From the NCBI GenBank assembly GCA_022844405.1, contig JALHLV010000018.1, forward strand, positions 1 through 64,000: 64,000 bases of DNA, written 5' to 3'. Below, piece by piece: positions 25,925-30,613 of this stretch. Numbering within the stretch: position 1 is the stretch's first letter; the number at the start of each line of letters is the position of its first letter. This DNA comes from Sphingomonadales bacterium. Lineage in GTDB: Bacteria > Pseudomonadota > Alphaproteobacteria > SMXS01. Below the pieces are notes generated by a model, which saw only the letters and a program-made list of their open reading frames with translations, was not told where the DNA came from and searched no databases. Both the position numbers and the translations under genes were made by a program.

Positions 25925-26770
25925 GTGACCGGACCGCTTCGCGTAGCCGGCGCCGCCGTGCTTGTGACCACACTGTTCTTCGCGCCGGCTTCGCGGGCGG
26001 AAAACACGGTCTTGGGGTTGGACTTCGGACAGTCCGACCTGCTCGAGGACGTGGGCGAATTCTGGACCGAGGTCAGCGACGACTTCCGGTTCAAGCTCGG
26101 CGTCGGCATGGCCGTCGCGCCGCGCTTCGAGGGCTCGAACGACTACAAGGCGCGGGTGATGCCCAAGTTCTCGCTGCGCTACAAGAACCTGCTGTCGCTC
26201 CACAACACGCGCCTGCGGGTGTTCATCGTCCACAACGAGAAGTTCGTCACCGGCGCGCAGGCCCGCTACCGCTTCGGCCGCGACGAGGACAGTGCGCCCG
26301 ACCTCATGGGCCTCGGCAATGTGAGCGATTCCTTCGAACTCGGCGGCTTCGCCGAATGGCGTCCCGGCTGGGCGATCGTCGGCGCCGAGGTGGGCCGCGA
26401 CGTGGCCGGCGGTCATGACGGACTGATCGCGGCGATCTATGCCGGCTCGCAGCTTCCGCTCGGCGGCGGCTTCAGCCTCCAGGGCGGTGCCCAGGTCACC
26501 TGGGCCAGCGGCAACTTCATGGAGCGCAATTTCGGAGTCACCGAGGCCCAGGGCATCGCCAGCGGCCTGCCCGAATTCGATGCCGGCTCGGGCATCAAGG
26601 ACGTCGCCGCGCGGGTCGGTGTGCGCTTCAACAGGTGGAAGCACTGGGATTTCGCGTCCTATGTCGCTTATTCCAGGCTGATGAGCGACGCCTCGGGCAG
26701 CCCGCTGGTCGAGCTGCGCGGCAGCCCCAACCAGTTCATGTGGTCCATCTCCGGCCAATACCGGTTCTAA
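25925..26770 (+). CDS. MipA/OmpV-family outer-membrane protein
   Basis: The 281-residue protein has a signal peptide (cleavage after about residue 25, PASRA) and a beta-barrel pattern with a terminal phenylalanine (SGQYRF), typical of MipA/OmpV. MipA in E. coli scaffolds MltA and PBP1B in peptidoglycan synthesis; OmpV-like proteins may be porins. The GTG start at 25925 gives a proper signal peptide; the long upstream open frame does not. Its 3' end overlaps the converging DUF445 gene by 4 bp. Confidence 0.82.
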   Translation: MTGPLRVAGAAVLVTTLFFAPASRAENTVLGLDFGQSDLLEDVGEFWTEVSDDFRFKLGVGMAVAPRFEGSNDYKARVMPKFSLRYKNLLSLHNTRLRVFIVHNEKFVTGAQARYRFGRDEDSAPDLMGLGNVSDSFELGGFAEWRPGWAIVGAEVGRDVAGGHDGLIAAIYAGSQLPLGGGFSLQGGAQVTWASGNFMERNFGVTEAQGIASGLPEFDAGSGIKDVAARVGVRFNRWKHWDFASYVAYSRLMSDASGSPLVELRGSPNQFMWSISGQYRF

Positions 26771-28035
26771 CGCGCCGCGATCACCGCGATCAGGTACAGC
26801 GTGCATCCCACCAATCCGCCGACGATGGTGCCGTTCACCCTGATGAACTGCAGGTCGCGGCCGATTGCCAGCTCCGCGCGATCGGTCAGAGTCTTCGCGT
26901 CCCAGCTGCGCACCACCTCGGTGATGAACGCGCCGATCTCGCGCCGCCACGGTACGATGCCGGTGCGCACCGCCTCGTCGAGCCAGGCGTTCAGCCGCTC
27001 GCGCATGTCCGGCGCCTCGTTCAGCGTCCGGCCGATGGAACGGATGCCGTCGGCGATCGTGGCGCGCAGCGATGCCGAATGGGCACCCGAGCCGTCCTCG
27101 AGCTGGGCGCGCAGGTGCTGCCACAGGTTCGCCAGATAGTCCTGCGTCGCCGGGCTGTCGAGGATGCGCCGGGCGAAATCGCGGACCTGCTGCTGGGTGG
27201 CGGGCCGGGTGCGCAGGTTCCCGATCAGGTCGTCGACGGCCGCGTCGAACTGCGCGCGCACGGCGTGATCGGGGTTCGACATGTCGCCGAGGAAGTCGGT
27301 GATGCCGCCGACGATGGCGGTCGCCACCTTGCGGTCGACGCTGCGGGGAATCCACCATTTGCTCTGGGCATCGACCTGGTCGTAGATCGTGTCCGCGTGC
27401 TGCTCCAGATAGCGCCGGGCGACGATCAGTGCCTGGTCCAGCAGCGCATGGTGCTGATCACTGTCGCGCAGCAGCGCCAGCACGTTGCCCAGCACCACCG
27501 GCAGGTTGACGTTTTCGAGCTGGCGGCTCAGCGCCCGGTGGAAGAACGCCCGAACGTCGGCGTCGCTCACCGTCGCCATCATCCGCGGTACGGCCGCCAC
27601 CACGCGGTCCGCGATGGTGCGGGCGACGCCCGGATCGCCCATCCAGCGGCCGACCCTTCCGGCGACATCCACCGTCCGCAGCTTGGCGGCGACGGTTTCC
27701 GGCTCCAGGAAATGCCGGGCGACGAAGTTGCCCAGGTTCTCGCCGATCCTGTCCTTGTTGTTGGGCAGGATGGCGGTGTGCGGTATGGGGATGCCCAGCG
27801 GATGGCGGAACAGGGCGGTCACCGCGAACCAGTCGGCCAGGCCGCCGACCACCGCCGCCTCGGCGCCGTTGTGGGCAAGGCCGACCCAGAAACCGTCGAT
27901 CGGCCAGAACAGCGTCGCGCCATACACCGCCGCCATGGCGAGCAGCAGCAGGCCGGCGCCCATGCGGTAGCGGCCGAGCGCCCGGCGCTGTGCCTCTTCC
28001 CATCCGAAGCTTGTTTCGCTATTTAGGGCGGTCAC
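26767..28035 (-). CDS. DUF445 (YjiN-like) membrane protein
   Basis: The 422-residue protein has two N-terminal hydrophobic segments (MGAGLLLLAMAAVYGATLFW and the AAVVGGLADWFAVTALFRHP segment that marks DUF445), a long central helical region of charged repeats, and a C-terminal membrane helix (LVGCTLYLIAVIAA). The role of the family is unknown. It converges with the MipA-like gene, sharing 4 bp at the stop codons. Confidence 0.87.
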   Translation of the reverse strand: MTALNSETSFGWEEAQRRALGRYRMGAGLLLLAMAAVYGATLFWPIDGFWVGLAHNGAEAAVVGGLADWFAVTALFRHPLGIPIPHTAILPNNKDRIGENLGNFVARHFLEPETVAAKLRTVDVAGRVGRWMGDPGVARTIADRVVAAVPRMMATVSDADVRAFFHRALSRQLENVNLPVVLGNVLALLRDSDQHHALLDQALIVARRYLEQHADTIYDQVDAQSKWWIPRSVDRKVATAIVGGITDFLGDMSNPDHAVRAQFDAAVDDLIGNLRTRPATQQQVRDFARRILDSPATQDYLANLWQHLRAQLEDGSGAHSASLRATIADGIRSIGRTLNEAPDMRERLNAWLDEAVRTGIVPWRREIGAFITEVVRSWDAKTLTDRAELAIGRDLQFIRVNGTIVGGLVGCTLYLIAVIAAR

Positions 28036-28176
28036 TGGCCGGCTCCTGAAGTTTTCAGCATTGCTACACTAGCGTAACGCCGCGTCTCCGCGTCAGGCCC
28101 CATCCCGCCTTTGGGCGCGAAACGGGATTTCGCCGTGGTGGCGTGATAAGGTCAGCCAGTCCTGTAGGAGTTGCCC

Positions 28177-28386
28177 GTGCAAGAAGTCGTCGTTCCGTGC
28201 CCTTCCTGTGGGAAGACCGCCTATCAGGCGCCGGAACGCCCCCCCACGCTGGCCGAGATGGTCGGCAGCCTGTGCCCGCATTGTGGCCACGCTCTGACCA
28301 AGCCCGAGCTGCAGAAGCACTTTCAGGAGCTGATCCTCAAGGAAGCGGCGGCGCTCCTGTCGCGCATGCCGCAGCGGAAGTTCTGA
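28177..28386 (+). CDS. small zinc-ribbon protein
   Basis: The 69-residue protein has two CxxC knuckles (CPSCGK at residues 8-13 and LCPHCGHAL) that would bind one zinc ion, followed by a helical tail. It could bind RNA, DNA or a protein partner. GTG at 28177 is preferred since AGGAG lies 6 nt upstream; the TTG at 28171 would abut it. No named family is recognised. Confidence 0.6.
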   Translation: MQEVVVPCPSCGKTAYQAPERPPTLAEMVGSLCPHCGHALTKPELQKHFQELILKEAAALLSRMPQRKF

Positions 28387-28468: not shown

Positions 28469-29203
28469 ATGCTGCTCAGGGACCGCAAAATCCTCGTCAC
28501 TTTCGCCACCCATTGGGCGGGGCCGGAAATCTGCGACGGCCTGATCGAGGAGGGCGCTTCGGTCGTCTGCCATGATCCCGCCTTCGCCGACAAGGCGCGG
28601 GCCGAGGCGTTCGTGGCCGGCCGGGGCAATCTCACCGCTGTCGCCCATGAACAGCCGGCCGACATCGTGTCGGCCGCGCTCTCGGCGCTCGGGCATCTCG
28701 ACGTGCTGGTCAACAACGACGCCTTCCCGGCGATCCGCGCGCCGGTCGAGACCGCCGATCCGCGGGACTTTCGCGACGGCATCGAGGCGCTGATGGTGTT
28801 CCCTTTCATGATGGCGGGCGCCGTGGTGCCGCACATGAAGGCGCGCAAGGCCGGCAAGATCCTGTTCCTCACCTCGGCCTCGGCGCTCAACGGGCTGGCC
28901 AACTATTCCATGTACGCGGCGGCGAGGGCGGGCGCCAACGGCCTCGCCAAATCGCTGGCGCGCGAACTGGGCAAGGACAACATCCAGGTCAACGCCATCG
29001 CCTCCAACTACATCGAGAACCCGGACTATTTCCCGCCGGAGCTGCTGGCCAACAAGGAAGCCTACGCGAAGATGGTGAAGAACATCCCGCTGGGCCGCCT
29101 CGGCAAGCCCCGGGAGGCGGCGCATCTGGTGGCGTTCTACGCCTCCGACCGCAGCGACTTCATCACCGGCAACATCATGCCTTTCTCTGGTGGATGGGCG
29201 TAG
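28469..29203 (+). CDS. halohydrin dehalogenase-like SDR protein
   Basis: This 244-residue protein has the SDR fold but not the NAD(P) glycine loop: residues 11-18 read TFATHWAG, matching the halide-binding T-x4-F-x-G signature except for Trp in place of Phe. The catalytic set is Ser136-x12-Tyr149-x3-Arg153, the S-Y-R triad of halohydrin dehalogenases in place of S-Y-K. Stretches such as VCHDPAF and LDVLVNNDAF align with HheC from memory. It would convert vicinal halohydrins to epoxides and open epoxides with nucleophiles. The next gene (NAMPT) follows 18 bp later. Activity is inferred. Confidence 0.75.
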   Translation: MLLRDRKILVTFATHWAGPEICDGLIEEGASVVCHDPAFADKARAEAFVAGRGNLTAVAHEQPADIVSAALSALGHLDVLVNNDAFPAIRAPVETADPRDFRDGIEALMVFPFMMAGAVVPHMKARKAGKILFLTSASALNGLANYSMYAAARAGANGLAKSLARELGKDNIQVNAIASNYIENPDYFPPELLANKEAYAKMVKNIPLGRLGKPREAAHLVAFYASDRSDFITGNIMPFSGGWA

Positions 29204-29221: not shown

Positions 29222-30613
29222 ATGGTCAACCCGATCCTCAACACCGACAGCTACAAGACCAGCCATTTCCTCCAATATCCGCCCGGCACGACGCGGCTGT
29301 TCGCCTATCTCGAAAGCCGGGGCGGCGCCTATGACCGGACGCTGTTCTTCGGGCTGCAGGCGATCCTGAAGCAGGAATTCGCCACGCCCGTCACCCGTGA
29401 CCACATCGAGGAAGCGGCCGAACTGCTGGACGCGCACGGCCTGCGCTTCAATGGCGCCGGCTGGCAACTGCTGCTCGAGCGGCACGGCGGGCGCCTGCCG
29501 GTCGAAATCCGTGCGATCCCCGAGGGAACGGTGGCGCCCACGCGCAACGCGATGATGACGGTGGTGAACACGGACCCGGACTTCCCGTGGCTGGCGTCCT
29601 ATGTGGAAACCGCGCTGCTGCGCATCTGGTATCCGGTCACCGTGGCGACGATCAGCTGGCATGTCCGCCAGACCATCCGAGCCGCGCTCGTCAGGACCGC
29701 CGACGATCCCGAGGCCGAGCTGCCGTTCAAGCTGCACGATTTCGGCGCACGCGGCGTCTCCAGCGAGCAGAGCGCCATGCTGGGCGGTATGGCCCATCTG
29801 GTCAGCTTTAGGGGAACCGACACGTTGTCCGCCATCCTGGGCGCGCAGCGGTTCTACGGCGAGCCAATGGCCGGCTTCAGCATCCCGGCTGCCGAGCACA
29901 GCACGATCACGAGCTGGGGCCGTGACGGCGAAGTGGATGCCTATGCCAATATGCTCGCGCGGTTCGGCAGGCCCGGCGGCATCTTCGCCGTCGTCTCGGA
30001 CAGCTACGATCTCTATGCGGCGATCGATCACATCTGGGGCGAACGGCTTCGCCAAAAGGTCATCGAAAGCGGCGCGACGCTGGTGATCAGGCCCGATAGC
30101 GGCGATCCGGTCACCGTCGTGGCGAAGACCATGGCGCTGCTCGAAACCCGCTTCGGCTCGGACACGAACGCCAGGGGCTACCGCGTGCTGCGGCATGTGC
30201 GGGTGATCCAGGGCGACGGCGTCAATCCCGACAGCATCGCGGCGATCCTCGAGCGCACCGTCGCCGACGGCTTCTGCGCGTCGAACATTGCCTTCGGCAT
30301 GGGCGGCGCGCTGCTGCAGAAGCTCGACCGCGACACCCAGGCGTTCGCATACAAGGCCAGCGCCGCCGAGATCGATGGCGAATGGCGGCCGGTCTACAAG
30401 GATCCGGTGACCGATAGCGGCAAGCGCTCCAAGCGCGGCTTGCTGGGACTGGTTCGGGACGGCGACGGCTGGCGCACCGTCCCGGTTGACGGCCGGGATT
30501 TTCAGCCGCTGGACGGTGGTGACAACCTGCTCCGGCCGGTCTGGCGGGACGGCGATCTGCTGGTGGACGACAGCTTCGCCGCGATCAGGATGCGGGCTGA
30601 CGAAAGGGCCTGA
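29222..30613 (+). CDS. nadV: nicotinamide phosphoribosyltransferase (NAMPT/NadV type)
   Basis: The 463-residue protein condenses nicotinamide with PRPP to NMN in NAD+ salvage. Family motifs are LNTDSYKTSHFLQYPPG at the N-terminus, KLHDFGARGVSS, the SDSYD stretch and the PRPP/phosphate-site RPDSGDP. These identify NAMPT rather than the nicotinate enzyme PncB. Length is normal. NadV-type NAMPT is patchy in bacteria and often seen in phages and accessory regions. No NadM or NrdR neighbour is visible. Confidence 0.88.
   Translation: MVNPILNTDSYKTSHFLQYPPGTTRLFAYLESRGGAYDRTLFFGLQAILKQEFATPVTRDHIEEAAELLDAHGLRFNGAGWQLLLERHGGRLPVEIRAIPEGTVAPTRNAMMTVVNTDPDFPWLASYVETALLRIWYPVTVATISWHVRQTIRAALVRTADDPEAELPFKLHDFGARGVSSEQSAMLGGMAHLVSFRGTDTLSAILGAQRFYGEPMAGFSIPAAEHSTITSWGRDGEVDAYANMLARFGRPGGIFAVVSDSYDLYAAIDHIWGERLRQKVIESGATLVIRPDSGDPVTVVAKTMALLETRFGSDTNARGYRVLRHVRVIQGDGVNPDSIAAILERTVADGFCASNIAFGMGGALLQKLDRDTQAFAYKASAAEIDGEWRPVYKDPVTDSGKRSKRGLLGLVRDGDGWRTVPVDGRDFQPLDGGDNLLRPVWRDGDLLVDDSFAAIRMRADERA

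Follow-up and report, generated by a model that had tools for sequence, protein, structure and literature searches.

The open reading frame at positions 28469-29203 of the window (the whole stretch of 64,000 nucleotides analyzed here) raises the question of whether its 244-residue product is a halohydrin dehalogenase (HHDH), and what a tryptophan at the center of its first sequence motif would mean for such an enzyme. The frame is complete, running on the forward strand from an ATG at 28469 to a stop at 29203, and it was also selected by a purpose-written gene caller based on codon usage (score 123). The first-pass annotation had read the segment TFATHWAG and the arrangement S136-x12-Y149-x3-R153 from this frame, and both were confirmed in the translation and in an alignment of 44 sequences. 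The features that bear on the question are the following:

28469..29203, forward strand: HHDH-lineage protein of 244 aa, assigned from structure matches, tree, and model
28499..28522, forward strand: motif 1, TFATHWAG (T11-x4-W16-x-G18), with the Trp codon TGG at 28514-28516
28874..28927, forward strand: motif 2, the putative catalytic triad S136-x12-Y149-x3-R153, with the codons of S136 at 28874-28876, Y149 at 28913-28915, and R153 at 28925-28927
28883..28885, forward strand: Ala139, aligned with Pro135 of HheC in the alignment with reference rows
29003..29029, forward strand: loop S179-N180-Y181-I182-E-N-P-D-Y187, with Ser aligned to Pro175 of HheC

The published HHDH signature combines T-X4-F/Y-X-G with S-X12-Y-X3-R (PMC4989007). 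The second part is present in full (S136, Y149, and R153), as are the Thr and the Gly of the first (T11 and G18), while its central Phe/Tyr is replaced by W16 in every one of the six genus members found to carry the gene. The aromatic class at the motif center is retained despite this departure. Since the literal published motif is missed at one position, the protein is, by its motifs, a variant of the HHDH lineage and not a canonical member. The oddity that the annotation had seen by comparison with T-x4-F-x-G stands, with the small correction that Trp replaces a residue which may be Tyr as well as Phe in the published motif. Across the 44 aligned sequences, S136, Y149, R153, and G18 do not vary and T11 hardly does, and the protein keeps all other family-invariant residues along with the full triad. 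Neither classical SDR motif was found: TFATHWAG does not match T-G-X3-A/G-X-G, the glycine places of the absent NAD(P) motif being occupied by F12 and W16 of this protein, and Y-X3-K is replaced by Y149-x3-R153. The SDRs of the same genome retain the glycines in the alignment. The gene encodes the only HHDH-level sequence of the 3.8 Mb genome; the next matches lie at E ~1e-22, compared with E 1e-30 or better for the HHDH homologues of other genomes.

A search of solved structures returned PDB 6A41 as the best match (E 2e-73, 49% identity, residues 1-244 aligned to 1-244), after which came the HheC entries, variants included, and HheA, HheA2, HheD2, and HheD8, with FabG-type reductases only behind these. 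The top 12 solved matches are all HHDHs, and the motif pattern has thus not arisen by chance. General SDR models, namely Pfam adh_short_C2 and an NCBIfam FabG-type model, also match, and none of the NCBIfam models listed for the protein passed its own cut-off. A maximum-likelihood tree of 71 rows was calculated with IQ-TREE under LG+C20+F+G4, with HheA, HheA2, HheB, HheC, HheD2, HheD8, HheG, and 6A41 from the PDB searches as reference rows; SDRs encoded in the genome under study served as outgroup. The SDRs split from all HHDH-type rows with a support of 100/97. Our protein falls in the neighborhood of HheC and 6A41, where the nearby forks have a support of 91-94, so that its exact relation to HheC is unsettled; HheG sits on a very long branch and its placement is unsure. 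An AlphaFold2 monomer model built with 44 homologues as input has a mean pLDDT of 96.6 and superimposes on 6A41 with Z 38.0 and an rmsd of 1.1 Å over 244 residues, HheC coming next (Z ~34). As SDRs reach Z 33 against the model and the SDR fold is common to both families, the fold alone does not separate them, and the decision falls to the tree and the motifs. These place the protein in the HHDH lineage, with an S-Y-R triad and without the glycine-rich NAD(P) motif, in line with the candidate assignment of the annotation.

Among the known relatives, 6A41 (entitled 'Dehalogenation enzyme' and near-identical in sequence to L100, an alphaproteobacterial homologue) shares with our protein the triad and the SNY-ENPDYFPP loop in addition to the identity and rmsd given above, but differs in its Phe-containing motif 1, TNVEKFAG, and in having Pro where our protein has Ala139. 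HheC of Agrobacterium radiobacter AD1 (1PWX, 3ZN2) is 39% identical and has the triad as well; it differs in the Phe of motif 1 (F12, the equivalent of W16), in its length of 254 aa (10 residues longer), and in Pro135 and Pro175. HheA/HheA2 (4Z9F, 1ZMO), HheB (4ZD6), HheD2 (7B73), HheD8 (8XXB), and HheG (5O30) have the lineage, the triad, and an aromatic residue in motif 1 in common with it, but this residue is Phe or Tyr and they occupy separate branches of the tree.

Tryptophan is present in all six genus genomes found to carry the gene (L001 and L089-L093, 80-91% identical to the 244-residue protein), the genus motif being T[FS]A[TS]HWAG; a sequencing error or the oddity of a single genome is thereby ruled out. 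The Trp clade has a support of 100/100, and its sister group consists of Phe-type proteins from the family's two remaining genera. These sister sequences, L094 (TNVTHFAG) and L095 (TNVTHFVG), are 60-61% identical to our protein and both have Phe, which is therefore the likely ancestral state. The codon is TTC in L094 versus TGG in the Trp clade, two bases apart. Phe occupies the position in 29 of 29 HheC/6A41-like reference rows, and Phe or Tyr in the remaining HHDH-type rows except for three triad-less tandem partners without an aromatic residue. A further set of about 25 homologues, drawn from another alphaproteobacterial order and a phylum-wide sample, also had Phe or Tyr and in no case Trp, and the HHDHs of known structure likewise have Phe or Tyr. 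No report of a natural Trp at this position was found in the open-access literature, to which the search was confined, subscription papers lying outside it. On this distribution, the exchange of Phe for Trp noted in the annotation is indeed a lineage-specific change in the nucleophile pocket, made at genus level, of single origin, and subsequently retained. Judged from pairwise dN/dS values of 0.10-0.34 among the six species, the protein is under purifying selection within the genus, and its frame is intact.

Compared with the 29 HheC/6A41-like rows, W16, E20, A45, F111, and A139 occur in the Trp clade only, and its S138 and Y224 are rare in other rows. A139 sits three residues past the catalytic Ser, at a place where 28 of these 29 rows have Pro and one has Val. 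Position 179, which is Ser or Ala in the Trp clade, varies elsewhere too (P, F, A, S) and is weaker evidence than A139. Ala139, in turn, is shared by HheB/HheD-type enzymes whose motif 1 has Phe or Tyr, and for both reasons a compensating role of these two residues is only suggestive.

The residue at the center of motif 1 has been studied in detail in HheC and HheG. The side chain of F12 in HheC contacts the bound halide, a contact unseen in HheB, which has Tyr, and QM/MD calculations on HheC assign F12, P175, T131, and L178 a role in anion binding (PMC11976700). The loop that corresponds to 29003..29029 holds the anion-binding backbone in HheC and includes P175 and L178 (PMC11976700). The F12Y variant was up to 5-fold more active, and its melting temperature was 10 K higher; according to the QM/MD study, Phe-type enzymes have a water near P175 where the hydroxyl of F12Y sits, and the main chain of T131, beside the catalytic Ser, is the bonding partner of this Tyr (PMC11976700). 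Saturation mutagenesis of F12 yielded active variants with G, A, C, S, Q, H, and Y, and every exchange except those to M and R was obtained, so that F12W was made but is absent from the active list (PMC11976700). From this absence we read that HheC F12W is inactive. In HheG, Y18F alone kept significant activity (PMC11976700). This screen is the only experimental lead found on the effect of Trp, and the absence of F12W fits a large effect in the form of activity loss in the HheC backbone, not a demonstrated change of nucleophile. The Trp clade must either tolerate Trp by means of other changes or do something else.

We consider it probable that the protein works as an HHDH-lineage enzyme without a cofactor, with HheC and 6A41 as its nearest characterized branch, in which the wall of the anion pocket changed once from Phe to Trp. 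The triad chemistry is established for HheC, and from the conservation of its residues we infer the same chemistry here: with Arg153 activating it and Ser136 assisting, Tyr149 would take the proton from a vicinal haloalcohol, and the resulting alkoxide would displace the halide to form an epoxide. In the reverse direction an epoxide would be opened with halide or another small anion. Motif 1 would line the pocket that holds this anion, with an aromatic wall that changed from Phe to Trp once in the genus and has been kept so. The likeliest effect of Trp would be a smaller and more rigid anion pocket; its indole N-H may replace an ordered water or the hydrogen bond that the hydroxyl makes in Tyr-type enzymes, whether with the anion or with the main chain beside the catalytic Ser, and Ala139 together with Ser/Ala179 may give it room. 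A changed nucleophile preference is plausible, and it is a tentative possibility that the reshaped anion pocket gives this natural HHDH clade a preference for nucleophiles or leaving groups, or else a natural substrate, unseen in subtypes A-G. Given that HheC F12W is not among the actives, Trp may also abolish the dehalogenation of the usual substrates.

The gene lies in a neighborhood conserved in the genus, which comprises a Rieske ring-hydroxylating oxygenase, a SnoaL-like protein, a 422-aa protein, a 71-aa CxxC protein, and the HHDH; in most members, genes for a GST and an SDR follow the HHDH at a distance of a few kb. Its nearest neighbors in the window are the following:

26767-28035, reverse strand: 422-aa protein, a genus-conserved neighbor
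28171..28386, forward strand: 71-aa CxxC-CxxC protein, directly upstream of the HHDH
29222..30613, forward strand: nicotinamide phosphoribosyltransferase-like gene, 19 bases downstream of the HHDH

The 71-aa gene, whose product has no Pfam match, adjoins the HHDH in all five other genus members compared. The nicotinamide phosphoribosyltransferase-like gene adjoins it in this species only and was not found in most of the family; an operon with this gene is thereby ruled out as a functional clue. A relative with 54% identity occurs elsewhere in one other genus member, which, with the adjacency in a single species, suggests a recent insertion. Across 14 loci from other genera, no neighbor common to HHDH genes, such as an epoxide hydrolase, recurred; the only clusters seen repeatedly were made up of the SDR/HHDH family itself, of antisense reading frames, and, in three loci, of one distant gene family. 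No conserved neighbor pointing to a haloalcohol pathway was found around the gene or across genera. The genome has four EHN-type epoxide hydrolases, so that an epoxide product could be handled by one of them; one of the four genes shares the contig with the HHDH gene, at a distance of about 41 kb, and no operon links them to the HHDH.

A rather unlikely explanation, though the best placed of the alternatives, is that the Trp clade left haloalcohol chemistry, the indole filling the pocket and halide being bound poorly, so that the same triad would serve another reaction, for example the opening or isomerizing of a natural epoxide or the loss of a different leaving group. The results for HheC F12W and HheG Y18F (PMC11976700) point in this direction, as do the fixation of Trp in a constrained sequence, the further clade-only changes E20, A45, F111, and A139, and the lack of a dehalogenation operon around the gene. 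However, the triad and the other family-invariant residues are all retained, the sister genera have ordinary Phe-type enzymes, and the predicted fold is unchanged. A decaying or non-catalytic copy is very improbable: one strongly conserved pocket residue is gone, and triad-less HHDH homologues do exist in other families (the partners in L127, L121, and L122, as well as L131, L132, and L134), but dN/dS values, frame, and invariant triad speak against decay, and the gene is the only HHDH-level copy of its genome. That the protein is an ordinary NAD(P)-dependent SDR minus its Lys, the case in which the annotation would have failed, can hardly be entertained despite the matches to general SDR models, and is ruled out by the tree and by the motifs, with an Arg instead of the Lys, no glycine-rich motif, and every SDR ranking below the solved HHDHs by sequence.

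The preferred reading, an HHDH-lineage enzyme with a Trp-walled anion pocket, describes a small, testable natural variant of a known enzyme and not a new kind of enzyme. Motif-based mining with the published Phe/Tyr signature would miss the clade, and one genus has accepted a residue that is missing from the active variants of the HheC screen. The clade thus offers a direct test, set by nature, of the second-shell changes by which an anion pocket can accommodate a bulkier aromatic residue, changes that matter for engineering HHDHs with other nucleophiles. Homologues are kept in eight of the ten family genomes, and the natural role of most HHDHs is open (PMC4989007).

The description of HHDHs as rare in the first-pass annotation proved too strong. 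Homologues at E<=1e-30 occur in 48 of 385 sampled alphaproteobacterial genomes, about one in eight, and in 26 of 40 genomes of one other order at a stricter cut-off. The homologues from the 48 genomes include at least one ordinary SDR-type sequence (L140). An HHDH homologue is a common alphaproteobacterial gene. The plasmid records contained one distant match, annotated as haloalcohol dehalogenase.

Several homologues are unusual in themselves. Tandem copies were found in three small alphaproteobacterial genomes of one genus, at L127:2360-3837 (-), L121:2280-3755 (-), and L122:2147-3637 (+). One copy of each pair has the S-Y-R triad and a Tyr-type motif 1; the partner copy, conserved at 62-66% identity, has Gln for the Arg and a motif 1 without an aromatic residue, and may assemble with the active copy into a heteromer. 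The HheA-like sequences L131:1990-2745 (+), L132:2089-2826 (-), and L134:1917-2693 (-) have Pro, Ala, or another residue in place of the catalytic Tyr, keep the Tyr of motif 1, and are possibly non-dehalogenase relatives. The motif 1 Thr, almost invariable in the HheC/HheG study (PMC11976700), is Ser or Ile in L104, L107, and L122. Lastly, two public MAG records entitled Candidatus Kuenenia and Rhizobium (L009 and L010) contain the locus of the genus with 90-91% identity and conserved neighbors, and their titles look wrong.
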